From NCBI GenBank assembly GCA_037974665.1, contig CM075766.1, positions 46,241,569 through 46,305,568 of the forward strand: 64,000 nucleotides of DNA. The letters are read 5' to 3'. Each line of letters opens with the position of its first letter. The stretch's first letter is position 1. Shown piece by piece: positions 1,627-52,625 of this stretch. The position numbers and the translations under genes were made by a program. The DNA is from Ehretia macrophylla. Lineage: Eukaryota; Streptophyta; Magnoliopsida; Boraginales; Ehretiaceae. The notes below the pieces were generated by a model that made no database searches, was not told the DNA's origin, and saw nothing but the letters and a program-made list of their open reading frames with translations.

Positions 1627-2267
1627 TAAGGCTATCCTCAATGGAGTCTTTATAATGGGTCTCTATCCATTATTTTAGAGACCCATATAGAGACCAAATA
1701 GTGTTTTAGAGACCCACTTAGAGACCAAGGTAAAAAACTATTTTAAAGACTCATTTAAAGACCAAGATTAAAAAAAACATTATCGGTGACGGTCTCCATA
1801 AAATTGAGTTTCTATATTGTGTTAATTTTAATTTTATATCATAATTTGATTATGTGTTTTTTTTAATTAATTGTTATTTAGATTATTTCAACTTGTTTAA
1901 TGAATATTTCAACCAAAAAATAAATAAATTGCGACGAACATAACATTTAAAAAAAACTATACATAAGAAAGATCTTAATTAAATTTACCCATTAATTAAT
2001 TTTTTCACCTAAACTAAAAATAAAGTAAAAAATTTTATTTTTTCAACAAGTAGTAATATCAGTTAAAAAAAAAAAACAAGCAGCAATAAAAAAGTTTACC
2101 GAACTAAAAAAACTAAAATAAAAAAATAAAATACAAAACCATAATTAAAAAAAAAATGTCTAATTAAAAAACCTTAAATGCAAAACCTTAATTAAAAAAG
2201 CTTAATTACAAAATACCTTTTAAAAAACTCTAAATAAATATATATATATAAAAAATAATAATAATAA

Positions 2268-2560
2268 CCCTCCACCCACCCACCCACCCACCCACTCACT
2301 CACTCACTTTTTCCCTTTTTCCCTTCTCTGCACAGCAGCCCTTCTTCTTCCCCTGCGCAGCATCAGCGCTCGCCCCCCCTCCCACCCACCCACCCACTCT
2401 TTCCATTTTTCCCTTCTCTGCGCAGCAACCCTTCTTCTTCCCCTTTTTTCCTTGCAGCGCATCAGCGCCCGCCCCCCCCTCCTCCCCACCCCTCTTCTCC
2501 GCTGCATCCCACCCCCCCCCCCCCCCACACCATCTTCTACGTTGCCACCCCACCACCAAC
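2268..2560. repeat. C/T-rich low-complexity block of element A
   Basis: Runs of CCCA, CCCT and CTTCTT with long C homopolymers. It produces several overlapping minus-strand ORFs rich in Gly, Arg and Lys that have no coding character. A similar block sits at the matching place in element B (9532-9830). Confidence 0.8.
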
Positions 2561-2711
2561 ACAAACTTTATGTTTTTTTTTTTTTTTCAGATCTGTGTTT
2601 ACCTTTTTTTTTTGTTATTTGTTGAAAAAAATATTTGTATTGTAATTTGTTTATGTTTGTTAAATTTTTTGTTGCTGTTTGTGCTCTTTTTTGTACTTTT
2701 TTTTTTTTTGG

Positions 2712-2752
2712 CAGATCTGACGATGTCAGACAATCTGACATCGTCAAATCTG
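2712..2752. repeat. Palindrome in right arm of element A
   Basis: Two 19-bp arms (2712-2730 and 2734-2752) are inverted copies around a 3-bp loop, centred on the motif TGACGATGTCAGA. The same hairpin recurs in element B at 9905-9948 with small changes. It is probably a family feature of these non-autonomous elements; its function is unknown. Confidence 0.7.
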
Positions 2753-4190
2753 ATATTGTTTATTTTGGAGACTCATTTTTGTCTTCTTGTATAGTCTCCA
2801 TTTTCTTCAACAAATTTATTGAAGAAAATGGAGACTAGGTGTTATTTTGGAGACTCAAAGCTTAAGTGTTGTCATAATGTTGCCAAAAACCATCAAATAG
2901 TATTTTAGAGACCCCCATTGATGATGAATTTTGATCAATAGAGTCTCTAAAATAACAATTATTAGGTTATCCTCAATGGAGTCTCTATAATGGGTCTCTA
3001 TCCATTATTTTAGAGACTCATATAGAGACCAAATAGTGTTTTAAAGACCCACTTAGAAACTAAGGCAAAAAAACTGTTTTAAAGACCTATTTAGAGACCA
3101 AGATAAAAAAAAAAATCCCGGGTGACGGTCTACATAAAATTAAGTCTCTATATTGTGTTAATTTTAATTTTATATAATAATTTGATTATATTTTTTTTTT
3201 CGTGTGTTGTTTTTTTTTAATTAATTGTTATTTAGATTATTTCAACTTCTTTAACGAATATTTCAACCAAAAAATAAATAAATTGCGACGAACATAACAT
3301 TTTAAAAAAAACCATACGTAAAAAAAATCTTAATTAAATTTACTCATTAATTAATTTTTTCACCTAAACTAAAAATAAAGTAGAAAATTAACCAAAAAAA
3401 ACTAAACTAAAAAATTAAAATAAAAAAATAAAATACAAAATCATAATTAGAAAAAATGTCTAATTAAAAAACCCTAAATGCAAAACCTTAATTAAAAAAT
3501 CTAATTAAAAAATCGTGTGTTACCTTTAATTAAAATTGTGCGTTAATTTTAATTTTATATAGTAATTTAATTATGTGTTATTTTTTCTCGTGTGTTACCT
3601 TTTTTTTAATTAATTATTATTTAGATAATCTTAACTTTTTTAACGAATATTTCAACCAAAAAATAAATAAATTGCAACAAAGATAACATTTAAATAATTA
3701 GAATTATTCATAAAAACAACTATAAAAAAATATCTTAATTACAAAAAAAAAATTACAAGTATATTTTTAAAAAACTACAACTATAAAAAAAAAGAAAAAT
3801 TAGATTTAAAAAATCTATAAATTACAACTATATTGAAAAGAATAATTATTAAAAAAAACTCAATTACAATCAGAATAGTAGAATAAAACCTAAACTAAAA
3901 AAAGTATAATTAAAAAACATAAAACAAATAAAATTAAAAATTAAAATAAAATACAAAACCTTAATTAAAAAAAAGTATAATTTAAAAGCCCTAATTAAAA
4001 AAATCTATTTAAAAAACCTGCTTGACATTTATCATGTTATTCAAGTTAACCTACATTCAAGGGTAAATGCCTATATAATTAAAAAATTCTAATTAAATCA
4101 ACCCTAATTAAATATATAAAATAATTTAATTACAAAAACAAAAAAACAAAACCTAAATATAAAAGCCTATTATCTCACTTCCAACCCTCC

Positions 4191-4792
4191 TGTTGATATA
4201 TGTCAATATCCACCTCTTCATAATAAGTATCGTTAATTATATGGTAGCATAAATTAATGATTCCGACTTAAACGTCGATGAGGTCAAAAGAGATCGCGAT
4301 GGCTACAAGAAAGAAGTTCGGGAATTTGGAATTACCTAAGATGACGTCGGGTTGATGCAATGCTAAAGTTAGCCAATTTGACCAAAGGAAACTTCCTAGA
4401 AGTTGACTTGGATGCTAGCCACCCATGTGGTCAATTGTAGCCACCCATGTGATAAATATGGGTGGCTAATACTTTGAACATGGTTGGTAAAGCCAACCAA
4501 GATTGAAATGTTTGATAGGAAAGTCTCCTATGGCGGGCTAGCTGAATTCTATAAATAGGCATGCATTAGTTCATCATTTTCATCCACAACACAATTCCAA
4601 ACACAATCCTAAGTTAGTCTTTCTTTCTTGTATTCTTCTTGTAAGTCCAGAAGCCATTGAAGCTCTAATCTAGAGAGCGCACGGTGGAACAATTATATTG
4701 TAAGTGTTATATTGAATTGTTATAAAGAGTAGTGTTGTCTTTGTACTTGATTGTTGTTAAGACGTTTCTGGGAAATTGGTTATATTCTTACA
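4191..4792 (+). repeat. 5' LTR of the copia element
   Basis: Begins TGTTGATATATG and ends TTACA, 602 bp. It carries a TATA box at 4550-4557 and a repeated motif TAGCCACCCATGTG at 4416-4429 and 4438-4451. That motif is followed by an inverted partial copy (4458-4468), so the region can fold. The 3' copy at 8930-9531 is nearly identical. Confidence 0.95.
4550..4557 (+). promoter_or_regulatory. LTR TATA box
   Basis: TATAAATA within the 5' LTR, repeated at 9289-9296 in the 3' LTR. Its position about 240 bp before the LTR end is suitable for the U3/R boundary. This is a sequence match only; transcription start is not shown. Confidence 0.6.
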
Positions 4793-4804
4793 TGGTATCA
4801 GAGC
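4793..4804 (+). other. Primer-binding site, initiator tRNA-Met type
   Basis: TGGTATCAGAGC directly follows the 5' LTR. This is the standard plant copia primer site, complementary to the 3' end of initiator methionine tRNA. It fixes the LTR boundary at 4792. Confidence 0.85.
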
Positions 4805-4850
4805 TTAAGGGGCTCTTAACAACAATCTTGTCTAGTAAAGCTCAACAACT

Positions 4851-5897
4851 ATGACTACTCAAGGTGCTAGTTCTTCTTCTACCAGTTCTAGTTCCGGTTT
4901 AGTACCGACAATTCGTATCCGTCCCCCTACCTTCACAGAAGGAAAACTTGATGGCACGAACTATCTTTTGTGGAAGTTCAAAATCACTACAGTTCTGGAC
5001 TCCTACGAACTCCTTGATACAGTGTTAGGCACAGATGCAGAACCAGTTGCAGTCCGTGCTGAAGATGACACAAAAAAGGTCACACCTCCAGATCCTCAGC
5101 TTGTCAAAGAATGGAGGAGACGAAATGATGATGCACTTTGTGCAATTGTAACAAGTGTTCAGGATTCTGTCCTTACTTTAATTCAATACACAACCAAGGC
5201 AACTGAAGCTTGGAACATACTGAGAAATCAGTATGAAACAAGGAACCAGACTCGCATTCAAAACTTGGAGAATCAGTTAGCTGCTGAGAGATTAAGTGAA
5301 GATGAAGCAGCTGAGTTATTTATCAGTAGGATGAAAAACCTACGTGATCAAATGGCTGCAGTTGGTATTGCCAAATCAACCGAGGAACTAGCTCGAAGGT
5401 GCATTAGAGTGTTGCCTCCAAAATTTGACGGCCTTGTGACAGCACTCAATACACAAGTTCGCATTCCTCCTTTGACGTTTGAAGAATTCACTGCCATGTT
5501 AATGGAGGAGGAGATGAGGCTGAGGAGCAGAGAAAATCAACTTGACTCTGCCTTTACAGCCAAGGCGAGGAGTAACCAAGAAGAAAAGAAGAAAGCAAAG
5601 AAGAAAACGTTCTCTGGATCGTGCTACTACTGCAATAAGAAAGGTCATGCTGTCAAAGATTGCAGGAAACGAATCCATGACGAGAAGAACGGAACTTTAA
5701 AGCCAAATTGGAGAAATAAAGAATCTGCCAATACGGCTGAAACGGAAGTGCATCTGTTTACTGTAACAGATGTATCGGAGGAAACGTGTACTAGCGCACA
5801 TGTACATCAAACAAGTGCATGGGTGTTAGATAGTGGAGCTTCCCGACACATGACCAGCAAGAAGGAGTTATATGACTCCATAAAACCTCTACAATAA
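4851..5897 (+). pseudogene. copia gag and start of protease (broken)
   Basis: Opens with an ATG 58 bp after the LTR. The N-terminal part is a copia Gag (UBN2 type), with a tryptophan-rich start near LDGTNYLLWKFKI. A basic segment precedes a CCHC zinc knuckle (C-Y-Y-C-N-K-K-G-H-A-V-K-D-C, about residues 262-275). The aspartic protease active site DSGAS lies near the C-terminus (about residues 327-331). An in-frame TAA at 5895-5897 stops it just after the protease active site. That is not a place where copia elements use a programmed stop, so I read it as damage. Confidence 0.9.
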
Positions 5898-7230
5898 CCA
5901 ATGAATGTTGTCGTCGGGAATAATGCGAGGTGTCCTGTTGAGGGCACTGGAACCATCTCGCTCGTGTCTCAAGATGGAGGAAGCAAGAAGCTGTCCAACG
6001 TACTCTTTGTACCCCAGATCACCAGAAATTTGCTATCTGTAGCTGCTATTATAGATAATGATCTAGAAGTGCGGTTCAAGAAGACGGAAGCTTTGATTCT
6101 TGACAAGGATCAAAATATCGTAAGTAAAGGTATTCGCAAAAATAATCTTTACGAAATCAGCTCTCTTTCTGCTGTCGTGGATGCCAAAACAAGTCAACTT
6201 TGGCATGAAAGGTTCGAGGACATTTCCTAGCCTGTGTTAGAGGAAATGCAAAAGAAGAAGATGGTGGCCGACTTGCCTTCAATTGAAGAAATTGAAGGAC
6301 CATGTGAAGCTTGTATGCTGGGCAAGCAACATAGACAGTCATTTCCCAAAGAGAGTCATAACTGATCAAAGGCTCCTCTAGAGTTGGTACATGCTGACCT
6401 CTGCGGAAAAATGACTACGACGGCGTTGGGAGGATCTTCCTACTTTATGCTGTTAGTCGACGATTATAGTAGGAAGATGTGGGTGTACTTCCTTCGGGAC
6501 AAGGCTGATGCTCTTGAAAAGTTTAAAGTGTGGCACAAACTTATGACAAATGAGAACACAACTCAGTTGAAGAAACTTCGTACCGATCGTGGGGGGGGAA
6601 TTCTGTTCTACAGAGTTCACCAACTACTGCAACAAGCTTGGGATTAAGCGCCAATTGACTGCTCCATACACACCACAACAAAATGGAGTTGTGGAACGAA
6701 GAAATCGAACAATTGTAGAAATGGCTCGATGCATGTTGAAAGGTGCTGGCCTACCTGACACATTCTGGGCTGAAGCAGTCAACACAGCGGTATACATCCT
6801 CAATCGGTGCTCAACCAGGGCACTCAACGATAAGACTCTTAATGAGGCTTATTATGGTACGAAACCTTCTGTGTCTCATTTAAGAAAATTTTGGTGTGAA
6901 TGTTTTGTACACATTCCAAATGAAAATCGAAAGAAATTGGATGACAAGAGCAAGAAGGGCATTTTCTTGGGATATAGTGAAGAGTCTAAAGCATACAGAC
7001 TCTATGATGTAGAGGCCAAGAAGGTGATCATAAGCCGAGATGTGGTGTTTAATGAGCGACCACACTCAATAGAGGATAGCGGTCCTGCCATTTCGTCATC
7101 AATGGATGAAGTAATTCACCAAGTGCCTAAACAACGACCGTTGAACAATGAAGAAGTTTCTAATGATGAAGAGACTGAAGACCAACCTGTTGTATCCACA
7201 AGGAAGCCACAACCGAAGTGGTTCCAATAG
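5898..7230 (+). pseudogene. copia protease remainder and integrase (broken)
   Basis: The same frame continues after the stop at 5895 and is interrupted again at 6228-6230 (TAG) and 6363-6365 (TGA). The gag-pre-integrase zinc-binding region (LWHERF and CEACMLGKQ) and the integrase core are readable: the first catalytic Asp in VHADLCG, the second in LRTDRGG and the Glu in NGVVERRNRT. Within the run of eight G at about 6591-6598 one extra G shifts the frame, so the second half is read in another frame. A further TAG lies at 7228-7230. Confidence 0.85.
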
Positions 7231-8901
7231 CTCTTTGATGGAAGAAATCTAGGAATTACTGATGATAGTCCACGTCCTGATGGACTAAAACGATCAAAGA
7301 GAATAGAGGAGCAGAACAGATCAGGACAACAACTAGTAAACATGGCTTTGATGACCCAAATCATCAAGACGGTAAAAGAACCGGTAACTGTGGAGGAAGC
7401 CATGTCAGATCCAAATTGGAGAGCAGCTATGCAAGCCGAGTATGATAGTATCATGAAAAATGATACTTGGGAGATCGTTGAAAAGCCACCGAATAGAAAA
7501 ATTATCGGCACCAAATGGATCTGGAAAGTGAAGTACAAGGCAGATGGAAGTCTTGAAAAATACAAGGCACGCCTTGTAGCACAAGGATTTTCGCAAGTCG
7601 AAGGTTTCGATGTATATGAAACCTTTGCTCCAACAGCAAAAATGTCAACAATCAGGCTAGTTGTTGCAGCTACCGCGCATTATGAATGGATTGTACATCA
7701 AATGGATGTCAAGTCAGCTTTTCTTAATGGGCAACTTGAAGAAGAAGTCTACGTTGTACAACCCCCTGGCTTCCAAATACCAGGTGAAGAAGAAAAAGTC
7801 TGCAAATTGAAAAAGGCTTTATATAGGTTAAAGCAAGCACCACGAGCTTGGTACAAATGTATAGACTCTTTCTTCTTGCAACATGGTTTCTGTAGAAGCA
7901 AATCAGAGGCCAACTTGTATGTTCTAAGTGAACAAGGAAAGAAGGTAATTGTAGTCCTATATGTGGATGATCTTGTAATCACTGGTGACCATGAAGATAA
8001 TATTCGGAAGACGCAAGAATGGTTGAGCCAAGAATTTGAAATGACAAATCTTGGTCTTCTTCATTATTGCTTGGGAATCGAGGTATGGCAAAAACCTCAT
8101 ACTATCTTCATCTCGCAGCAACGATATGTTCGTGAGCTTCTGATTGCATTTGGTATGTCCGAGTGCAAATCAGTTGTCACCCCGATGGAAGTGAATACAA
8201 AGTTATCAATTGACGATCCTTCAGAACAAGTTGATAACAAGCTCTACAGAAGATTGGTGGGAAGTTTAATCTTCCTTTGTAACACAAGACCTGATATTAG
8301 TTATGCTGTGGGAGTTCTCAGTCGGTTTTCAAATAAACCGAAACAAAGTCACTGGCAAGCAGGGATGCGGATCCTCAAATATCTCAAAGGCACGTTGGAG
8401 TATGGGATATCATACAAGTCTGGAGATACTTTATCTGGGTACTGTGACTCAGACTGGGCTGGTGACATTGACTCAAGAAAATCTGTTACAGGTTACGTAT
8501 TCACATTCGGTGGTGGAATCATCTCATGGGCTAGTAAGAAGCAACCCACCGTTGCACTTTCATCAACGGAGGCAGAATACAAGGCTGCTTGTGTAGCATC
8601 CTGTGAAGCTGTTTGGCTACGACGCATCATGATTGATATTGGCATTCCAATAGAGGAAGCAACAATGTTGAAATGTGACAGTCAGAGTTGTATAGCCATG
8701 TCAAAGAATCCGGTATTTCATGCTAGAACAAAACACATAGAGATTCAGTATCACTATGTGAGGGAACTGATCGAGGAAGGTGAAATCTACATGGAGTACT
8801 GCCCTACAGAAGATAATTGTGCAGATATCTTCACTAAAGCGTTAGGGAGCGTCCAATTGAGCAAGCATCTTCAAACATTGGGTGTTGGCCCAATAGTTTA
8901 G
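7231..8901 (+). pseudogene. copia reverse transcriptase and RNase H
   Basis: Open through to 8901 once past the stop at 7228-7230; the first ATG is at 7342. Reverse transcriptase motifs are in order: KARLVAQGF, MDVKSAFLNG, and the YVDD catalytic box in LYVDDLVITG near 7960. RNase H follows (SDWAGDIDSRKS and SSTEAEYKA near 8560). It ends 28 bp before the 3' LTR. The domain is intact by eye but cannot be expressed as part of an unbroken polyprotein from this copy. Confidence 0.9.
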
Positions 8902-8929
8902 TCAATATGAGGTGAACATTGAGAGGGGG

Positions 8930-9531
8930 TATTGATATATGTCAATATCCACCTCTTCATAATAAGTATCGTTAATTATATGGTAGCATAAATTAATGAT
9001 TCCGACTTAAACGTCGATGAGGTCAAAAGAGATCGCGATGGCTACAAGAAAGAAGTTCGGGAATTTGGAATTACCTAAGATGACGTCGGGTTGATGCAAT
9101 GCTAAAGTTAGCCAATTTGACCAAAGGAAACTTCTTAGAAGTTGACTTGGATGCTAGCCACCCATGTGGTCAATTGTAGCCACCCATGTGATAAATATGG
9201 GTGGCTAATACTTTGAACATGGTTGGTAAAGCCAACCAAGATTGAAATGTTTGATAGGAAAGTCTTCTATGGCGGGCTAGCTGAATTCTATAAATAGGCA
9301 TGCATTAGTTCATCATTTTCATCCACAACACAATTCCAAACACAATCCTAAGTTAGTCTTTCTTTCTTCTATTCTTCTTGTAAGTCCAGAAGCCATTGAA
9401 GCTCTAATCTAGAGAGCGCACAGTGGGACAATTATCTTGTAAGTGTTATATTGAATTGTTATAAAGAGTAGTGTTGTCTTTCTACTTGATTGTTGTTAAG
9501 ACGTTTCTGGGAAATTGGTTATATTCTTACA
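8930..9531 (+). repeat. 3' LTR of the copia element
   Basis: 602 bp, preceded by the purine tract GAGAGGGGG. Its second base is A where the 5' LTR has G, so the canonical TG terminus is changed to TA. The TATA box is at 9289-9296. About eight substitutions separate it from the 5' LTR. Confidence 0.95.
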
Positions 9532-9904
9532 CCTCCCCCCCCCTCTTTTCTCTCTCTTCCTTCTTCTTCCCGTCCCTTCCTTGTTGCACTTCCCCCTTTC
9601 TCTCTCTTCCTTCTTCTGTCTCTTCCTTCTTCTTCCCGTCATTTCCTTGCTGCACCTCCCTCTCTCTCTCTCTTCCTTCTTCTTCTCGTCTCTTCCTTGC
9701 TGCACGCTCCCCCCCCTACCCTACCTCTTCCTTTCCCTTCCCCGTTGCACCCCACCCACACCCCCCCACTTTCCCCGCTGCACACCCCCCCCCCACACCC
9801 CTCCCACTTTCCCCGCTGCACAATTGTTTTGTATTTTTTTTTTTCTGTTTGTTAATTTTTGTTGTTGTTGTTTGTTAAATTTTTTGTAACTTTTTTTTTT
9901 TCTT

Positions 9905-9948
9905 CAGATCTGACGATGTCAGATTGACAATCTGACATCGACAGATCT
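9905..9948. repeat. Palindrome in right arm of element B
   Basis: This is the counterpart of the hairpin at 2712-2752. The left arm (9905-9923) is identical to that of element A, and the right arm (9931-9948) differs by small changes. Conservation in both copies suggests it was present in their common ancestor. Confidence 0.65.
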
Positions 9949-10242
9949 CACATTTTTTTTAGAGACTCGTTTTTGTCTTCTTGTATAGTCTCCGTTTTCT
10001 TCAACAAATTTGTTAAAAAAAATGGAGACTAGGTGCTATTTTGGAGACTCAAAACTTGAGTGATGTCATGATATTGCCAAAAACTATCAAATAGTGTTTT
10101 AGAGACTCCCATTGGTGATGAATTTTGATCAATAAAGTCTCTAAAATAGCAATTACTGTTATTTAGAGACCCTTTAGGGACTCCATTGAGGATGTCCTTA
10201 GTGTTTAGAGACTCCTTAAAGACTCCATTGAGGATGCCCTAA

Positions 10243-11930: not shown

Positions 11931-11935
11931 AGGAT

Positions 11936-13167
11936 TGTTGAGTATATTATTGATATATGATTTCAGTACCTTTTCACTTAAACTTTGTTAGTTTTTGAGT
12001 AATTTATAAGCAATTTTATTGGTTTTGTCTTTGATTTGCATTGTAGGTAATTTCCAAGAGACAAACTGAGTTTTGAGGCAAAGATTGAAGAGAAATTGCA
12101 AAGGATTGGCTTTTATGCAATTTGTGGAGAAATTGAAGAACAAATAGAGTAGCGCAGTCATAGTGCAGCTGCGCAGTGTCGCAGAATTTTTAAGGGTAAT
12201 TTTGTAAAAGGCGTGAAAAAAAGAAACCCTATGTTAAAAAGAATGCATCAGACGTTAAAAAAGGGAGAGCTTTTGGAGGCAGCTGGTTTTAGGAGAGAAA
12301 AGCAACGTTCCAGAGAGGGAGAAAGTGAGGATTCGCGAGTTGAAGACGGAGGAACGATCCGGAGACAGACTTCTGCCCCAATTCTTCTCCAAATCCTAGT
12401 TTTCTCTATCTCTGTTATCATGTTTTACGTTACAATTGAGATTTTATTTATTTTCATAATTATGTTTTAAGCTATTTTTCTAGGGCTACGATGTAGCCGG
12501 ATTTTGAATATTTGAAGCTTTTGATTTGAATTAATTGATGAACTATTTCATATCTGCGTTGAGTATTTTATGTTGAGTTTAATGCTTGTGGTTGCCTGAT
12601 CAACAATTACATGAGTCGTGATTTAGTTTGAGACTGAGAAGTGATAACTAAATTAGACCACGTATAAAATACCATTAAATCGTCATAAGTTAGAGATAGT
12701 TATGAGATCTAATGCAGCATTTGAATTTCTAGGGCTTAATGCGTTCCATAAGTTCACAGTTATCACAGAGATGTAGTTAGTTTGCTTATTGGGATAGGTT
12801 ATTGATGCTTGAGAAAGATTAATATATACCTTAGCAAAATTGCTGGCAACGTAAGGAATAGATGTCAATTTATTTAAATTACTAGTTTCAAATATGATTA
12901 AGCTTGGTGAAATCGGAATCCCTAGAGCCTTTTTATTATTGAATTACCATCTTTTGTTAATTTCGTGATTGTGTTATTTTTTCTATTTTGTTAAGTCTAT
13001 AATTTATTTAGTCATTAGTTACAAATTCTCAATTTTTGATTGTCCGAATAAAGTTAAAGCTAAATTAATTTCGGTAGTTAGTAATTATAGTCCTCGTGGG
13101 AACGATCTTTACTTATCAGTTTATTACTTGTTGCGATACGTGCACTTGCGTTAGAATTCACTCAACA
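11936..13167 (+). repeat. 5' LTR of the Athila-like element
   Basis: 1232 bp and matched along its length by 18116-19348. The short ORFs inside it (12213-12470, 12969-13154 and the reverse ORF 12683-12868) recur in the 3' LTR. They are repeat sequence, not genes. Confidence 0.92.
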
Positions 13168-13173
13168 AGTTTT

Positions 13174-13191
13174 TGGTGCCGTTGCCGGGGA
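13174..13191 (+). other. Primer-binding site, tRNA-Asp type
   Basis: TGGTGCCGTTGCCGGGGA begins 6 bp after the 5' LTR. It complements the 3' end of plant tRNA-Asp with one mismatch (T for C at the fourth base). This primer is characteristic of the Athila lineage. Confidence 0.75.
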
Positions 13192-13427
13192 CTGTGTCAA
13201 TTATTAATATCGATACGAAATAGCTTTAATTTTACTTTGGATTTTATTTAATTTTGTGTTATTATCTTATTTTTGTTACGTGTGTTTCAGGAACATATTC
13301 CTTTAGGTGTATGCGAAAGTTGGGAGATAGCAATTTGTTGTCTTTCGATCCTGAGATAGAACGAACCTGTCGGAAGAACAAAAAGGAGAAAATAGCTACT
13401 ACAACTACCCATCATTTGCAAGGAAAT

Positions 13428-14509
13428 ATGGCTGACATGTAGCACAAGAAAGAAATAATCAGGAAAATACGCCTAGAACACTGCGAGAGTATGCTTTGCC
13501 ACCCACTGGAATTCAACCTGTGATTAGAAAGCCAGCGATTCAAGCGAATAATTTTGACTTGAAGACAGTGACGCTGCAGTTGATTCAGAATATTCCATTC
13601 CATGGACTGCCTTCTGAAGATCCTAACTAACACATAGTGAATTTTTTAGAAGTCTGTGGAACAGTTAAGTACAATGGAGTCACTGATGAAGCTCTGCGCC
13701 TTCGCTTGTTTCCTTTCTCTTTAAGGGATCAAGCTAAGGAATGGTTGAACTCGCTGCCTTCAGATTCAATCACTACTTGGGAGGATTTGGTGCACAAGTT
13801 TTTGTCAAGATTTTTCCCACCTGGAAAGACAGCGAAGCTGCGCATAGAAATCAATAATTTTGCGCAACATGAAGGAGAAACTCTATGTGAAGCATGGGAG
13901 AGGTATAAGGCGTTGTTGAGGAAGTGTCCTAATCATGGTGTACCAAGGTGGATGCAAGTTCATAATTTTTACAATGGGTTAATTAGCTCCACAAGAACTT
14001 TGATAGATGCATCAGCAGGAGGAGCTTTAATGAACAAGACAGCAGATGAAGCTTATGCGTTGCTATAGGATATTGTTTTGAACCACCAGCAGTGGTCAAG
14101 CGAGAGAGTCGCACCAAAGAAGACAACTGGAATCCATGAGATTGATGCCATAACCGCCTTGACAGCGAAAATTGTCAATCTCGCGAAACAGTTGCAAAAT
14201 AATCAAATGACTGCTAATGTTGTTCAGGTGACAGTGGTGTGTGAGTTTTTTTGTGGTTCACATCATAGTATAGAATGTCAAGTTGGAAATCCATTTGCGC
14301 AAGGCACAGCAGAACAAGCACAGTATGTGGGAAATTTTAATGGGCAGCAGCGCAATCCGTACTCTAACAGATATAATCCAGCATGGCGTAATCATCCAAA
14401 TTTCTCCTGGAGAAATAATCAGAATGTGTTGCAACCTGAGCAGAATAACCCACCACCAGAGAAGAATGTAAATTTGGAGGATGCATTGGCTCAGTTGGCG
14501 ACTTCGTAG
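13428..14509 (+). pseudogene. Athila-type gag, broken
   Basis: The likely start is ATG 13428. The frame shifts near 13440, then runs on with stops at 13628-13630 (TAA), 14066-14068 (TAG) and 14507-14509 (TAG), all in the same frame. The retrotransposon Gag domain is clear at 13640-14060 (LFPFSLRDQAKEWL, then FLSRFFPP). Near 14230 a degenerate zinc-knuckle-like C/H cluster (CEFFCGSHHSIEC) is followed by an Asn/Gln/Pro-rich tail. These lesions show the copy is not functional as it stands. Confidence 0.85.
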
Positions 14510-14518
14510 ACTCAATTC

Positions 14519-15991
14519 ATGAATGAAACAAGGACGAATTTCCAGAATCAATCCGCACAAATCAGAAACATGGAGATGCAGTTGAGCCAAATGGCTACGA
14601 TGTTCTCTGAAAGGCAACAAGGAAACTTACCTAGTACTTATGAGGTGAATCCTAGAAAAGATGACATGGAACATTGTAAAGCGATCACCTTGAGAGGTGG
14701 TAAAGAGTTAGAGAAGCCAGTGAGAGCCAAGAAGGTTGAGAAAGGTGAAGCAAAAAATGAGGAGAAAGATGAAGAGAAAACAGAAGAACAGGCACAATCT
14801 CCTCAAGAAACACATATGAAAGTCCCTTTTCCACAATGCTTGAAGAAAAATAAGCTTGATAAGCAATTTGTTAAATTTCTTGAAGTCTTCAAGAAACTTC
14901 ACATCAATATTCCATTTGCAGATGCGCTTGAACAGATGCCTAGCTATGTGAAGTTCATGAAGGACATCGTTTCAAATAAGAGGAAGCTTGGAGATTATGA
15001 GACAGTTGCACTTACTGAAGAGTGCAGCGCAATCCTACAGAAGAAGCTACCACAAAAGCTCAAGGATCCAAGGAGTTTTACTATTCCTTGTGAAATTGGC
15101 AATGTTGTTTTTGAGCGAGCTTTGTGTGATTTAGGTGCTAGCATTAATTTAATGCCTTTGTCTATTTTCAGGAAGCTTGGATTGGGAGAGGCAAGATCTA
15201 CAACTATTACACTACAGTTAGTTGATCGTTCGCTAAAGCACCCCAGAGAAGTTATTCAAGATGTGCTAGTCAAAGTCGATAAATTCATCTTTCCTGCAGA
15301 TTTCATAGTGCTTGATATGGAGGAAGACAAGGAAATTCCTATCATTCTTGGAAGACCTTTCCTTGCAACTGGAGGAGCACTTATTGATGTTCGAAAGGGT
15401 GAGCTTAGGTTGCGAGTACAAGATGAAGAGGTAACCTTTAATGTGTTCAAAGCGTACAAGTACCCAGAAGCTAGCGACAGTTGTTTGCGCATTGATGCCG
15501 TAAAAGCTATAGGGTGTAACCATGGGGGTCAATTGGATCCCTTGGAGGTGAGCTTGTTAAAAGATAATTCTTTTGTTTCGGGGGGATTGGAGCACAAGGA
15601 ATATTGGTCTATTAAACAACTAAACATGGGTGTGCAAGCAACGGGTGAGAAAGAATTGTTGAAATTGAATGAGCTAGAAGAATTAGGTGATAAAGTGAAT
15701 GAGAAAGCAAAAAGTTACAAGGAGATGACAAAAGAGTGGCATGACGAACCCATTTTGGGAAAAGATTTCTCTCCTGGGCAACAAATACTTCTTTATAACC
15801 CACAGATTCCAGGAAAACGCAAGTCAAGATGGTCAGGTCCTTTTGTCGTAACGAAGGTATTTCCCTATGGAGCTGTTGAAGTAAAACATTCAGAGAAAGG
15901 AACATTCAAGGTTAACGGACAACAACTGAAGACTTATTGGGATGATGAGTTTGATAAGCATAAGACTATTGTCCACCTCAATTTGTCGTGA
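14519..15991 (+). CDS. Retrotransposon ORF: Gag tail, protease, integrase C-terminal tail
   Basis: 490 codons, uninterrupted. It starts with a coiled, Gln- and Lys/Glu-rich Gag tail (residues 1-110). An Athila-type retropepsin follows, with CDLGASINLMP (Asp about residue 204) and the flap/second-half motif IILGRPFLATGGALIDV near residue 275. From about residue 361 it resembles the end of integrase: KLNELEELG, then GQQILLYNP and KSRWSGPFVVTKVFPYGAVEV. The roughly 1,000 or more residues of RT, RNase H and integrase core expected between are missing, yet the frame is kept. The deletion junction must lie near 15490-15600. It belongs to the preceding gag frame, separated only by a stop codon. Confidence 0.85.
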   Translation: MNETRTNFQNQSAQIRNMEMQLSQMATMFSERQQGNLPSTYEVNPRKDDMEHCKAITLRGGKELEKPVRAKKVEKGEAKNEEKDEEKTEEQAQSPQETHMKVPFPQCLKKNKLDKQFVKFLEVFKKLHINIPFADALEQMPSYVKFMKDIVSNKRKLGDYETVALTEECSAILQKKLPQKLKDPRSFTIPCEIGNVVFERALCDLGASINLMPLSIFRKLGLGEARSTTITLQLVDRSLKHPREVIQDVLVKVDKFIFPADFIVLDMEEDKEIPIILGRPFLATGGALIDVRKGELRLRVQDEEVTFNVFKAYKYPEASDSCLRIDAVKAIGCNHGGQLDPLEVSLLKDNSFVSGGLEHKEYWSIKQLNMGVQATGEKELLKLNELEELGDKVNEKAKSYKEMTKEWHDEPILGKDFSPGQQILLYNPQIPGKRKSRWSGPFVVTKVFPYGAVEVKHSEKGTFKVNGQQLKTYWDDEFDKHKTIVHLNLS

Positions 15992-18115
15992 AAAATTGCT
16001 CTGTCGGGCTGTCGACGTTAAAACAAGCGCTTTTCAGGAGGCAACCCGCAGTTTCTTACTTTTTCTTGATTTAATAGTTAGTTGTTTTTAGTTAATTTTT
16101 GAGTTATAGTTGTCGTAGTTAATTGTTGATTTTTATTGTCATGATAGGTTCAAGACTAAGTTTGGGGGAAGCCAAGGCAAAGAGAGGTTCTACCAAGTTA
16201 TTTAGAGGAGAAAATTGAGAGAAATTCGTGTCTGGAGTGAAGAGGTTGCGTGCATGGAAGAGGAAAACAAGAAGAAACAATGTTGTGCAGTAGCGCTGTT
16301 GTGCTCAATTTTAGCGCAGCTGCGCTGGCGTCCTTAAAAGTTACGTTTTTGCAATAGCACTGTTGCGCTAAATTTTAGCGCTACTACGCTGGCGTCCTTT
16401 GCATTGACGTTCGAAAAAAAAAAAACAATAGCGCTGTTGCGCTAAAAGAAGCGCCGCTGCGCTAGCGCTGTTTGAAGTTATGTTTTTGAAATAGCGCTGT
16501 TGCGCTAAAAAATGGCGCAGCTGCGCTGGTGTCTACAGTGATGTGAAAGAAAAAAAAAATGAAAAAGAAAAAGAAAAAGGAATCACCATGCCACCGAAGA
16601 TGCAGTACCACCTCGGGCTCACGTCGACGATGATACTACTCAGGGAAGTCCTCTGGTTGCTTTAATTTCTTTATTTTCGCCATTGAGGACAATGTCTCGT
16701 TTAAAGTTTGGGGGTGATTATTATATGTTTTTCTGTGTGAACTTGTTCTTTTAGTATTCGTATTATGTGTTTTTCTTTTGATGTGTTGTGTTATTTTTAA
16801 TATGTTCAAAAAAAAAATGATGAAAAAAAAAATTAAAAAGCTGAAAAAAAATTGAAAGTGATGTTGGAAAGATAAGAAATAGGCCGATGATAAGTAGCTT
16901 ATGAATTGCATGATAGTGATGAGGATAGTTGACTGAAGCATAGTTTGTTTTATGAAAAATCTCCATCTAATGCGCACTTAGCCTCGCCTAATTATGTTGT
17001 TGCTTAGAGAAGGTTTATGTGAGTTTAAGTGAATAGGAAAATGAGTATAGGACTTTAGAACTTGCTTGATTGTCACTCGAGGCAAAATCCTAGGTTGCAT
17101 AGCATTAGAGAAATGATTTAGGCCATTTTTGGATCGTTTGAGCCTTTCAAGTCAACCCTTGTAGTAATTAAATATCGCTAGTCCACCAATTTGAGCCTAA
17201 TTAGCCTTTTCTTTCATGTACAACATACAAATTCTTCCTTAACTTGTCAAGTTGATTTCCCCATATTATAACCCTTCTACCTATAACATATGATTGTTCT
17301 AGGATGATTATATGGAGCCATATTTTGTATTGAATGATGAAGGTTTGATGATTTGGTGATGTGTTGTTTTGTTTCAAAAAAAAAATGAATGAAATATTGA
17401 GAAAAACAAAAGAAAATAAAATAAAAAGAAAAGAGAACAACCACATTCCTTGTAGTTAATATCAAAATGCAAGTTTGGGGGAGTATGGACTCTGTGTTTT
17501 TTTAAATGTTTTGAATGACTGTTGAAGAAGTGAAATGAAAGATGAAAGATGAAAGAAAAGAGATATGTTGAATAGTTTTAGTGGTAAGAAGTAGACTTGG
17601 CATGTGCTCCATTGAACATCCTTGAATAGTTGTATGCTTGCAGGTAGTTTAGCCTTATATTATATCCATTATCCTACCTTGACCCTTGCCACGCGTTGCA
17701 ACCAAATGTAAAGTCCTATTGATCTCTAATGCTATGATTAACCTACATTAGTAGAGAGTGGCATGAAAAGTGGGCTTATGAAGTCCTAAGTGATTGAAAA
17801 TAAAATATCCATATTGATAATTCACTTAACTTGCATAAACTCATCCGGGGACAATTGATTAGGATAGAGGCTATTCACACACTCACATGGGGGATTTGAA
17901 GTAAAATGGAACTTATGTGAAGTTATTATTTCTCATGCTTATGATTGAAAGTTACCTCTTGAGTTGGGAAAAAGCTACTGAGGCCGTGAAAAATTTATTA
18001 TCCTACGGCATTGCTTTCATGAGTTATTTTGTATTGAGTCTTTAGTTTTAGTTTGTTTCTTTCTTTAGTTGTGTCTTTTGCTTGAGGACAAGCAAAGCTT
18101 AAGTTTGGGGGTGTT
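15992..18115 (+). other. Long 3' noncoding region of the Athila-like element with repeated PPT-like motifs
   Basis: No ORF with coding character. The motif AAGTTTGGGGG occurs four times: 16158-16168, 16704-16714, 17471-17481 and 18101-18111. The last lies 4 bp before the 3' LTR and is the expected polypurine tract. The second and fourth are both preceded by TTGAGGACAA, as if a tract module had been duplicated. Confidence 0.75.
16288..16540. repeat. Imperfect tandem GCGC-hairpin repeats in the Athila 3' noncoding region
   Basis: About four diverged units of 50-75 bp, each containing TAGCGCTGTTGCGCTAA-like sequence followed by GCGCAGCTGCGCTGG-like sequence. GCGCAGCTGCGC is a perfect 12-bp palindrome, and a related motif occurs in both LTRs near 12165 and 18345. 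The GC-rich units stand out against AT-rich surroundings and could form hairpins in RNA. Confidence 0.75.
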
Positions 18116-19348
18116 TGTTGGGTATATTATTGATATATGATTTCAGTACCTTTTCACTTAAACTTTGTTAGTTTTTGAGTAATTTATGAGCAATTTTATT
18201 AGTTTTGTCTTTGATTTGCATTGTAGGTAATTTCCAAGAGACAAACTGAGTTTTGAGGCAAAGATTGAAGAGAAATTGCAAAGGATTGGCTTTTATGCAA
18301 TTTGTGGAGAAATTGAAGAACAAATAGAGTAGCGCAATCATAGCGCAGCTGCGCAGTGTCGCAGGATTTTTAAGGGCAATTTTGTAAAAGGAGCGAAAAG
18401 AAGAAACCCTATGTTAAAAAGAATGCATCATACGTTAAAAAAGGGAGAGCTTTTGGAGGCAGCTGGTTTTAGGAAAGAAAAGCAACGTTCCAGAGGGGGA
18501 GAAAGTGAGGATTCGCGAGTTGAAGATGGAGGAACGATCCGGAGACGGACTTCTGCCCCAATTCTTCTCCAAATCCTAGTTTTCTCTATCTCTGTTATCA
18601 TGTTTTACGTTACAATTGAGATTTTATTTATTTTCATAATTATGTTTTAAGCTATTTTTCTAGGGCTACGATGTAGCCGAATTTTGAATATTTGAAGCTT
18701 TTGATTTGAATTAATTGATGAACTATTTCATATCTGCGTTGAGTATTTTATGCTGAGTTTAATGCTTGTGGTTGCCTAATCAACAATTACATGAGTCGTG
18801 ATTTAGTTTGAGACTGAGAAGTGACAATTAAATTAGACCATATATAAAAAAACCATTAAATCGTCATAAGCTAGAAATAGTTATGAGATCTAGTGCAGCA
18901 TTTGAATTTCTAGGGCTTAATGCGTTCCATAAGTTCACAGTTATCACAGAGATGTAGTTAGCTTGCTTATTGGGATAGGTTATTGATGCTTGAGAAAGAT
19001 TAATATCTATTTTAGCGAAATTGCTGGCAACGTAAGGAATAGATGTCAATTTATTTAAATCACTAGTTTCAAATAGGATTAATCTTAGTGAAATCGAAAT
19101 CCCTAGAGCCTTTTTATTATTGAATTACAATCTTTTGTTAATTTCGTAATTGTGTTATTTTTTCTATTTTGTTAAATCTATAATTTATTTAGTCATTAGT
19201 TACAAATTCTCAATTTTTGATTGTCCGAATAAAGTTAAAGCTAAATTAATTTCGGTAGTTAGTAATTATAGTCCTCGTGGGAACGATCTTTACTTATCAC
19301 TTTATTATTTGTTGCGATACGTGCACTTGCGTTAAAATTCACACAACA
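18116..19348 (+). repeat. 3' LTR of the Athila-like element
   Basis: 1233 bp, beginning TGTTGGGTATATT and ending CACAACA. It carries roughly 38-40 differences from the 5' LTR by eye. It ends 313 bp from the stop codon of the ZHOUPI-like gene on the opposite strand. Confidence 0.92.
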
Positions 19349-44124: not shown

Positions 44125-44252
44125 TCCTTATAGAAACTTCGTTACGTCTCGACCATTTAGATTCAAGGATTCTACTTTTTTCAGACAATCTCTGACAGGC
44201 TCAAATCTTGGTTGCCCAGAAATCTAAGGTCCATTTCCCGACAAAAACAAAA

Positions 44253-45599
44253 ATGCAGCGAAGCATGAGAGATAAATTCGATTCTCGCGGCTTGGCTGCT
44301 TTACTTTCCTCTCTAATTTCTCAACTTATCCTTTTGCTTACTCTCCTTTTCCCTTCCACCACCACCACCAACACCACCAATTCCTCCGCTTTCCCTTCAA
44401 TTCCTTTCCCTCTTCTTCACCATCTCCTTTACGCTTCAGAAATCGCTTCCACCATCTCTCTCCTTTCGTTTTCCAGAAAACGGAAGCGGACCCACTTCCA
44501 AGACCGCGATGCCCCGGTCGCTGACGATGACGACGAGTCCGGACTCGTTCAACTCGGCCGAGTTGACTCAGTCATCCCCCGAAGCCTCGACTCGTTTAAG
44601 AGTTTCTTTAAGATGAATTCTTCGACCTTTGAATGGCTCTGCGGCCTTCTTGAACCGCTACTGGAGTGCCGTGACCCCGTTGACTCGCCACTGAACCTCC
44701 CTGCAGAGTCACGACTTGGTATTGGCCTTTTCCGACTCGCCACCGGCGCCGATCACGGGGAAATCTCCCGCCGCTTCCGGGTATCAGAGCCTGTAGAAAA
44801 ATTCTGCGTCAAGCAATTATGCCGCGTTCTCTGCACAAATTACCGGTTCTGGGTCGGTTTTCCTAGTCAAAACGAGTTGGACTCGGTGTCGACTCAGTTC
44901 GAAACCCTCACGGGGCTGCCTAATTGTTGCGGCATTATACATTGCATTAGATTCAGGGTCAAAAGAAATAACGGGTCTGATCCAATTTCAGAAAATAGGC
45001 CTCAAGAAGAGAGCATAGCAGCTCAATTAGTAGTTGACTCATCATCAAGAATTCTAAGTATTGCAGCTGGTTTTCGCGGCGATAAGGATGATATAAAGGT
45101 CCTAAAAGGATCAACTTTGTATAAAGACATTGAAAAAGGCGTGTTATTGAATTCGCGTCGGATATATATCAATGATGTAGCTATACCTCAGTATTTAGTA
45201 GGGGATGGAGGCTATCCTTTATTCTCTTGGTTAATGGTTCCATTTGATGATTCAATGGCAGGATCGTGTGAGGAACATTTCAATAATGCATATTCAGTTA
45301 TGCGTCTCAGGATGCGGAGAACAATCGCGAGTTTGAGAAATTGGGAAATTTTGAGTCGGCCGATTGAGGCAGAGTTTAAGGCTGCAGTGGCATATATTGG
45401 TGCTTGTTCAATTCTTCATAATATGTTGCTTATGAGGGAGGATTATTCGGCTTTTCGTCACGAGTTGGATGACTCTACATTGTATGATCAGAGATTTCAG
45501 TACTACAGAGACAATGCTAATGAGGAGGCTGTTGCTGTTGAGAACAAGGCTTCAGAGATAAGAAATGCATTAGCCACAAAAGCAAAGACGTCTCTTTAA
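44253..45599 (+). CDS. Domesticated PIF/Harbinger transposase, HARBI1/ALP1-like
   Basis: Intronless, 448 aa from ATG 44253; the frame opens earlier only at a non-ATG codon, and ATG 44265 is a possible later start. The N-terminus has a hydrophobic stretch (about residues 15-35), a Thr/Ser-rich linker and a KRKR basic cluster near 75. The DDE-4 domain covers about residues 150-395. The first catalytic Asp (IDCTH-type motif) is replaced by His (GIIHCIRF, H230). The second is kept (GDGGYPL, D318). The third acidic residue, expected in the motif after HFNNAYSVMR, aligns with Arg (about R355). No TIRs or target duplications surround it. Arabidopsis ALP1 and relatives are similar exapted transposases, ALP1 acting with Polycomb PRC2; I cannot say whether this gene shares that role. 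Confidence 0.85.
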   Translation: MQRSMRDKFDSRGLAALLSSLISQLILLLTLLFPSTTTTNTTNSSAFPSIPFPLLHHLLYASEIASTISLLSFSRKRKRTHFQDRDAPVADDDDESGLVQLGRVDSVIPRSLDSFKSFFKMNSSTFEWLCGLLEPLLECRDPVDSPLNLPAESRLGIGLFRLATGADHGEISRRFRVSEPVEKFCVKQLCRVLCTNYRFWVGFPSQNELDSVSTQFETLTGLPNCCGIIHCIRFRVKRNNGSDPISENRPQEESIAAQLVVDSSSRILSIAAGFRGDKDDIKVLKGSTLYKDIEKGVLLNSRRIYINDVAIPQYLVGDGGYPLFSWLMVPFDDSMAGSCEEHFNNAYSVMRLRMRRTIASLRNWEILSRPIEAEFKAAVAYIGACSILHNMLLMREDYSAFRHELDDSTLYDQRFQYYRDNANEEAVAVENKASEIRNALATKAKTSL

Positions 45600-50362: not shown

Positions 50363-51638
50363 TAGGGACGGAGCTAGGAATTAAAAATTGGGAGGGCCGA
50401 TTTTTTTTTTTTTGTACAATATTTTTTTTGTACAGTATTTTTCAAACCAGTAAAAAAAATATCTAAAAAATAAAATAAAATAATAAAAAAACTAATTAAG
50501 AATTCAATTAAATATAAATTATATTTTTATATTTGAATAAACCTGAAATTTTTAACATTATAAGTTAATTTGATTCAAGAAAAAATACAAATCTGACATA
50601 TACTACAAAAAAATAACAAGCACAAATCATATTCATATCAAATAATTATCCAATATATATGCAAACTACCAAACAAAAGATAGATAAGAAAGAAGTTAAT
50701 AAAATATAAACTAATCTAACAAAATGAAGCCTTGTGTATTGCGATTTTGATTTACTCATATTAGCCTGAAAATAATTTTCAAAAATAAAATAATTAGAAA
50801 GTCTAAACTTAACTAGCAAAAAATCAATAAGTTACACCTTATTAAAATTTGTCCATTAAAATTATCTATTTATTAACAAAAAATTGGCTATCAAAATATA
50901 ATTAACAAAAAATGTTATACACAAAGAAATTATTATGAGATGTATTTCAATAAAAAATTATTTACCTTAGTCACTTATTGTTGTCTTGTGTTGATATGTT
51001 CACCCACTGCAAAAAAAAAAAAAAAAAAAATCATGGTTATGCATTCATAAAATTATATAGGTAAGAAAAATTAATAAATAAGCATAATAAAATTATTTTC
51101 GTGCCCTTGGTTTGCATAACTATGTTGGTATTAAGCTTTCATAAAATAATATTGTGCAATAAACTTGTGCATATATACCTTTTAACTTGAGATTTGCATG
51201 AAGATGTTGTACAATAAAGTTGAGATTTACAAGGAGAATTTGAGAAGAAGATAAAGATGATGATATTTTTGTTTTGTTTTTTTTTTTTAAAAAAGGTGGA
51301 ACGATGTTAAGAGCTTTTAAGTTGGTTACCTGGCAAGCAATTGGCATAACACTTTCGCCCTTTTTTTTCTTTCACCAACTTTCAAGGAGACTGGCTAGCA
51401 AAAAATTATAGTATTTAGAGCCGTGAAGAATCAAACTTGCACCAACCATATGAAAACACTCATAACTAACCACCAAGTTATCCCACATGTTGTGAACTTT
51501 AACAACTTTTATAATATTTATTGGGGGGGCCAAATCTATTTTTTTTAAAAAATATATTAAATATATATATATATATTTTTAGAGGTTTGTGGGGGGGGGG
51601 GGGGGGTGGGCCCCCCGACCCCCCCCCCTCCGCCCCTG
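50363..51638. mobile_element. hAT-like non-autonomous element
   Basis: The left end starts TAGGGACGGAGCTAGG, and the right end complements to CAGGGGCGGAGGGGG. Both match the plant hAT terminus (C/T)AGGGGCGGAGC. An 8-bp duplication AAGATAAA lies at 50355-50362 and 51639-51646, the length expected for hAT. The 1276-bp interior is AT-rich without transposase; the right end has a long G run (51591-51606). It inserted 161 bp beyond the CCoAOMT stop, in or near its 3' UTR. Confidence 0.8.
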
Positions 51639-51911
51639 AAGATAAAAGTAATATGCATGTATCGCTTGCAACACGATTTATCTCAACGAGCATTACTATA
51701 CTATCACTTGGTCTATGGTACATCATGTTCAATATAATAAAAATTCTTATCGTACGAAAGAATTTGACGGCCCCCCCGCCCCTCTCTCCCTCCCTCCCTG
51801 AAGATAAAAGTAATATGCATGTACCGCTTGCAACGCGATTTATCTCAACAAGCATTACTATACTATCACTTGGTCTATGGTACATCATGTTCAATATAAT
51901 AAAAATTTTTA
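51636..51911. repeat. Tandem duplication at the right border of the hAT-like element
   Basis: About 115 bp from CTGAAGATAAAAG to AATATAATAAAAATT is repeated (51636-51750 and 51798-51911, period 162) with about four differences. The spacer is C-rich (GGCCCCCCCGCCCC), like the hAT terminus. The duplicated unit includes the last bases of the element and its target duplication, so it arose after insertion. Confidence 0.8.
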
Positions 51912-52141
51912 TTTTTGAGATTTAATACTTCAATTTTAATTGGTACGAAGAGAATGACTTATTCCTAAGTCACACAACATTAATTGTTGATAGATGTGAG
52001 ATCAATGCGATGGGGGCATTTCAACCTATTTAGTACTTTAGAATAATGGTATTTGTTTGATTAGGTGCAACCATGCATGAGACCTATTCATCTGTCAAAT
52101 GTCAAGAGTATATAGTTTGTGAAACGGGATCAATAATATAA

Positions 52142-52625
52142 GGGAAAATTTCATATTTAGTCCTTATTGTTTGTAAAATATTTTAATTTAGTTTTTTTTA
52201 TTTAAAATATTTTAATTTAGTCTTTATTATTTTATCAAAAATTTAATTTTCATTCATATCGTTTAAAATATTTTAATTTAGTCCTTATTATTTTTCAAAA
52301 GTTTCAATTTCGTCCCTATTATTTTTAAAAAGTTTCAATTTCGTCTCTATTATTTTCTTAAAGTTTCAAATTCGCCCCTATTATTTAAGGACTAAATTGA
52401 AATTTTTTGAGAAACAATAGGGACGAATTTAAAACTTTTTAAAAATAATAGAGATTAAATTGAAATTTTTGAGAAACAATAAGGACGAAATTGAGAAACT
52501 TTAAACAATAAGGACGAAATTGAAACTTTTAGAGAAACAATAGGGACTAAATTGAGATATTTTAAATAATAAAGACTAAACTGAATTTTTTTGTAAACAA
52601 TAGAGACTAAATGTGAGATTTTTCC
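52142..52625. mobile_element. Fold-back element with 9-bp duplication, Mutator-like
   Basis: The ends GGGAAAATTTCATATTTAGTCC and (complement) GGAAAAATCTCACATTTAGTCTC are inverted. The 9-bp duplication ATAATATAA is at 52133-52141 and 52626-52634. Each half is built from about 30-bp subunits of the type AGTCCTTATTATTTTTCAAAAGTTTCAATTT. The 9-bp duplication suggests Mutator-like origin. Confidence 0.8.

Follow-up and report, generated by a model that had tools for sequence, protein, structure and literature searches.

Exploring a 64,000-nucleotide stretch of Ehretia macrophylla DNA (hereafter the window), which carries plant-type genes, we found that positions 1630-10242 hold three mobile elements, one within another: an element that we call A, a sister element B lying within A, and a copia retrotransposon lying within B. 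Insertion of this A/B family into its own copies is real and recurrent in the genome, and its cause is probably that the subterminal repeats of the elements resemble the target sequence of the family. We hold with considerable confidence that A inserted at a TAA, B at a TTA and the copia element into B, and that related elements elsewhere have struck the TTA of CACTTAGAG and that of the next subterminal repeat. The nest in the window tells a story common among plant transposons, but one whose steps can be read with unusual clarity.

Structure of the nest in the window

Element A has a total length of 1374 bp and is bordered by the target-site duplication (TSD) TAA at 1627-1629 and 10240-10242. 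It consists of a non-coding left arm on the forward strand (1630-2964), whose terminal inverted repeat (TIR) begins GGCTATCCTCAATGGAGTC, and of a 39-bp right stub that includes the other TIR (10201-10239, forward). Element B, 1887 bp in total, lies between them as a left arm (2965-4190, forward) and a right arm that starts in the C/T-rich block of B (9537-10197, forward), and is bordered by TTA at 2962-2964, within A, and at 10198-10200. The TSDs were placed by reading the junctions and the arms by the junctions together with an A/B alignment, to which the family in the genome was added for the left arm of A and the match to the end of B for the stub. All of these junctions stand where the initial annotation had put them, B entering A 39 bp from its right end. 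Given the local composition, the probability that the TSDs match by chance alone is 0.016 for A, 0.022 for B and 0.0012 for the copia element. The order of events that had been proposed, A, then B, then copia, follows from the way the elements are nested and from their three pairs of TSDs.

The initial annotation had further claimed that removing B restores a terminus of A that aligns with the end of B. When B was excised and a single TTA kept, the right end of A matched the right end of B at 109 of 124 positions without gaps, compared with 45-61 matches at the 16 shifted offsets (-8 to -1 and +1 to +8) that served as register control. The stub itself agrees with the end of B at 32 of its 39 positions, and its best ungapped match elsewhere in the window is 23/39 (110,702 positions, both strands). 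Aligning the arms of A with those of B, as had been suggested, gave 1271 aligned positions at 87% identity; identity reaches 93% in the leftmost 405 bp and 89% in the rightmost 245 bp, B is about 500 bp longer internally, and two short palindromes are common to A (2712-2753 and 2792-2837) and B (9906-9948 and 9986-10031). The annotation would have been contradicted by a family that always ends at the internal break. The point of B in A is, however, not a family end, because many copies run through it uninterrupted to an intact right end (e.g. L009, L010, L013 and L015).

The copia element spans 4191-9531 within B and is flanked by CCTCC at 4186-4190 and 9532-9536. Its 5' LTR (4191-4792, forward) is followed by TGGTATCAGAGC, which we take to be a primer-binding-site-like sequence, and its 3' LTR (8930-9531, forward) starts with TA instead of TG. 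The gag-pol region (4851-8901, forward) consists of three separate open frames with domain matches to Retrotran_gag_2 (gag_2; 4851-5897), SH3_retrovirus (the integrase end/SH3; 6589-7230) and RVT_2 (7342-8901), all forward; the 602-bp LTRs, the 5-bp TSD and this domain order are those of a copia LTR retrotransposon. With its coding region split among three frames, the element looks interrupted and degenerate. The LTRs differ at 8 of 602 positions (K2P 0.0134), which corresponds to an age of about 0.5-1 million years if 0.7-1.3 x 10^-8 substitutions accumulate at each site per year. The placement of this insertion next to the C/T-rich block of B was borne out by the LTRs and the TSD, and not by restored homology, because the alignment there crosses low-complexity C/T sequence.

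Several other features were observed in the window. A related near-palindromic MITE of 352 bp, element C (58383-58734), is flanked by TAA at 58380-58382 and 58735-58737. A GTAAG that resembles a splice site, belonging to a wax ester synthase-like gene with an exon from 57552, immediately precedes it, and element C therefore probably lies in the first intron of that gene. An open frame of 463 aa at 44208-45599 (forward) encodes a transposase domain of PIF/Harbinger type (DDE_Tnp_4, E 2.5e-17; Plant_tran) and may represent a host gene of the ALP1-like, domesticated kind. A Ty3-type LTR element occupies 11935-19000, with repeat pairs 6180 bases apart and 97% alike and a gag at 13637-14068. The sole Rfam match of the window, snoR71 (13835-13941, reverse strand), lies antisense within this gag, which suggests that the snoR71 family matches retrotransposon sequence. 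At 52141-52600 an array of units of about 31 bases faces its own inverted copy (arms of 206 nt, 77% complementary, 22 nt apart), and at 51611-51912 a 140-nt direct repeat, 91% alike, recurs 162 bases apart.

Class, genomic copies and target preference of the family

Neither A nor B is coding, and both are Tourist/PIF-Harbinger-like as judged by their TIRs and TWA duplication alone. The two ends agree in 21 of the first 24 bases in A, 20/24 in B and 18/24 in element C, and the TIRs of all three elements fit those of the superfamily; in autonomous plant PIF/Harbinger elements the TIRs measure 14-25 bp (PMC2213677). The 3-bp TTA/TAA duplication typical of PIF/Harbinger was found in A, B, C and 27 of the 38 other copies described below. 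The TIR of A/B reads GGCTATCCTCAATGG and thus differs from the form G(N)5GTT, which is a mining condition of one Medicago study and not as a definition of the superfamily (PMC2213677). Within A there is no ORF of 110 aa or longer, and the ORFs of that size in the right arm of B are of low complexity; the DDE transposase and ORF1 of an autonomous element are thus absent from A and B. The label Harbinger-type given in the initial annotation is thus upheld as to TIR and TWA duplication, but one published TIR mining motif is absent and no transposase was identified. Two other assignments were rejected. CACTA elements also make a 3-bp TSD and their TIRs start with CACTA or CACTG, whereas the TIRs here start with GG; and a TA duplication, as in Stowaway, leaves the two ends unequal, whereas TWA makes them equal. 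The TIR pattern had 0 matches in viral and genome contig collections, as expected for a plant family, and a search of the literature for the TIR words returned nothing relevant, only biomedical papers by title.

The family shares with Tourist-like MITEs and other non-autonomous PIF-Harbinger elements the 3-bp TWA duplication, TIRs starting with GG, non-coding sequence and many copies; A-type copies, at 1.1-1.9 kb, are longer than usual MITEs. Nested MITEs are already known, and the A/B family with its favoured site is a new instance. Jiang and Wessler (2001, Plant Cell 13:2553) reportedly described nested MITEs of maize and rice and their insertion preference; there too the preference was read from nested elements, in another family and other hosts. 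In Medicago truncatula, MtPH-M-2-IIa likewise combines two related PIF/Harbinger elements with a nested LTR retrotransposon, but it is described in terms of mosaic blocks and a Gypsy-like insert (PMC2213677), whereas the junctions here are clean and the insert is copia. It has also been proposed that longer PIF/Pong elements pay a price in the form of self-insertion (PMC10288884).

The initial annotation had also suggested a search of the genome, and we searched the host genome (1.58 Gb, 20 contigs) with 201 bp from the left end of A. This gave 1061 first-look candidates, of which the best 40, window included, were scored; 39 other copies were fetched, and 38 had a readable left flank (L025, without one, was dropped). 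Complete elements with identical TWA duplications, 1146-1867 bp long, accounted for 27 of the 38. The remaining 11 do not combine a right end with an identical duplication: in L021, L034 and L035 the right end is present and the duplication letters differ, and L016, L017, L019, L026, L038, L040, L042 and L043 yielded no right end flanked by the matching letters. On contig C14, L012, L018, L030 and L039 have a common flank (97.5-100% over 180-200 bases), and a larger duplicated unit therefore carries the element there.

Target composition was taken from 27 unique sites, namely 24 further copies plus A, B and C. When the sites are oriented to read TTA, the base at -1 is C in 16 of the 27, that at +1 is G in 11 and C in 8 (19 together), and those at +2 and +3 are A in 13 sites each; when they are oriented by the element, the base at +1 is G in 17. 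Such a preference reaching past the TSD is a feature of PIF/Harbinger and likens the family to PIF and mPing, for which a 9-bp target preference is stated (PMC2836001). From 25 of the sites, all but the nested window B and L022, we built a target model; L018, L030 and L039, which share the flank of L012, do not contribute to it. The model ranks element position 89 first both in A, where it belongs to CACTTAGAG in the subterminal repeat (element position 86-94; 1715-1723, forward; score 16.1) and is empty, and in B, where CACTTAGAA occupies the equivalent position (3050-3058, forward; score 24.1). The site that B used in A, TTATTAGTG, scores 1.1 and is eighth in A.

The family is not richer in targets overall, an explanation that we rejected since its average target score per kb is no higher than elsewhere: it is 43 in A, 51 in B and 34-50 in 12 other copies, compared with 52 in the rest of the window and 58 in the flanks of copies. 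The short motif TTAGWG is found 8 times in A versus 1.34 in shuffled sequence (0 of 200 shuffles reach 8), 6 times in B versus 2.41 (4.5% of shuffles reach 6) and 58 times in the rest of the window versus 65, with no excess there. The 9-mer target of PIF is CWCTTAGWG; a literature search for this word returned nothing relevant. All nine bases of CACTTAGAG are kept in 31 of 36 aligned copies (L018, L030, L039, L038 and L035 being left out of this count), and no other segment of the first 201 bases is as well conserved (0.92-0.97, versus 0.985 for these nine), among copies that had been picked for similarity to A in that region.

Insertions of the family into its own copies

Among the 38 left flanks of the best-scored copies, L022 is the only self-nested case. 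Here a 1355-bp copy interrupts a host element that can be read up to position 91 on one side and from 89 on the other, TTA being duplicated. The insertion point is the top-ranked site of the model, from which L022 itself had been kept out. After shared flanks were collapsed to 33 independent loci, self-nesting stood at 1/33, with P 0.03 if the family counts 1061 copies (about 0.1% of the genome) and 0.09 with 3000 copies; this excess is suggestive only.

We then searched the genome for the host side of the CACTTAGAG site followed by an element end (up to 3 mismatches). This pattern, designed after L022 had already been seen, gave 17 matches and its reversed form 0. With the other 16 read, nests were found in 8 of the 17, L022 and seven more, at the TTA of positions 89-91 (CACTTAGAG) or of 127-129 (the next subterminal repeat). 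The host breaks off at position 91 in five (L022, L069, L074, L075, L076) and at position 129 in three (L070, L077, L083); the nine matches without a nest are L071-L073, L078-L082 and L084. At L084 (C18:42984725) a family-type end follows directly on the apparent end of another MITE (GGAGATACCC TTA), possibly an insertion at the TSD of another element. At the left junctions the insert starts with GGCTATC in four nests and with GGGCATC in four, showing that both orientations occur. Both junctions with the duplicated TTA were read in six of the eight: L022; L085, L087 and L089, with 335-bp inserts and a host that resumes at 89; and L086 and L091, with inserts of 306 and 313 bp and a host that resumes at 127. 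L088, whose insert is a long element in reverse, and L090 have no clean right junction, being rearranged or ambiguous. All five short inserts are MITEs, with 85-93% similarity to one another in the better or direct orientation; in L089 the ends and the interior disagree as to orientation. What ties these MITEs (L085-L087, L089 and L091) to the A/B family is the 46-base palindrome of A/B, which has a match at their centre.

Two comparison patterns were examined, a rough comparison since the host parts differ in conservation within the family. One at position 46 of the left end gave 9 matches, all read, with one nest and eight without; in the nest, L092, the host stops at 48, in a TTTAGAG subterminal repeat. 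The other, at the site of B in A (AACAATTATTA|GGCTATCCTCAATG), gave 23 matches including the window, and none of the 20 examined held a second nest (of the 22 other matches, two near-identical C13 copies were excluded). On this basis we discarded the idea of a hot spot at the right end: the site of B in A is not one. L019, considered as a second right-end nest, was also rejected, as its second element restores no clean junction, and a tandem-right-end pattern allowing no mismatch matched the window only, being too strict to prove rarity. Together, these data refine the earlier claim that the family inserts into its own kind: nine further nests (L022, the seven more and L092) speak for it, but the window is one event and indicates no preference.

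Proposed target mimicry and the alternatives

We propose that a PIF/Harbinger-type transposase, encoded elsewhere, would move the non-coding elements by cut and paste into targets with a TWA core and a bias to C before and to G or C after it. The subterminal repeats (TTTAGAGACYC, CACTTAGAGACC) would happen to match this target, and copies would be struck there; the site that B used in A, TTATTAGTG, is a weaker one. Such target mimicry is the simplest account, because the occupied sites are those favoured by the target model, and one would not need to suppose that anything other than target sequence draws the family to its own copies. As a rough estimate, an assumed 10,000 insertions over about 9 x 10^7 TWA sites, with a 16-fold favoured site in about 1000 copies, would give about 2 hits by chance, and five hits therefore demand no special attraction.

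The nests at 89 and 127 might instead reflect very few events, a composite having formed once or twice and then moved or been copied as a unit. We regard this as unlikely, though it deserves the most weight among the alternatives: five of the 8 inserts are MITEs of 306-335 bp, the three at position 89 are all of 335 bp, and L085 and L089 are 90.7% alike in their inner copies and 93.4% in the right parts of their hosts. Different kinds of element nevertheless occupy one site (the 1355-bp element of L022, the reversed long element of L088 and the short MITEs), and the MITEs of L085 and L087 are oppositely oriented (0.928 reversed, 0.877 direct), so that kind and orientation together would require at least four events at 89 and at least two at 127. 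As to the window, A and B are similar enough (87%) for exchange, and rearranged nests exist (L088), but it is very improbable that its nest arose when neighbouring copies recombined or underwent gene conversion, and not by transposition of B: B has both of its own ends and a TTA pair, and its removal leaves A in exact register.

A family that actively seeks its own copies, a transposase bound to the subterminal repeats tethering the excised copy, would account for insertions falling in these repeats, where binding of transposase would be expected, and for the share of self-nested flanks given above. The same repeats fit the target model, however, which may be explanation enough, and the excess depends on a single event; we consider such tethering doubtful. 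The location of the subterminal repeats suggests that they are putative transposase binding sites. It is conceivable, at similarly long odds, that they serve both for binding and as preferred landing sites, in which case insertions of kin would disable copies and brake copy number. The site most often found occupied is the one predicted by a target model trained elsewhere, and it lies in a subterminal repeat. If this pattern holds in a full census, the family would offer a tangible example with which to ask whether transposons hold their own numbers down because they contain the sequence they target.
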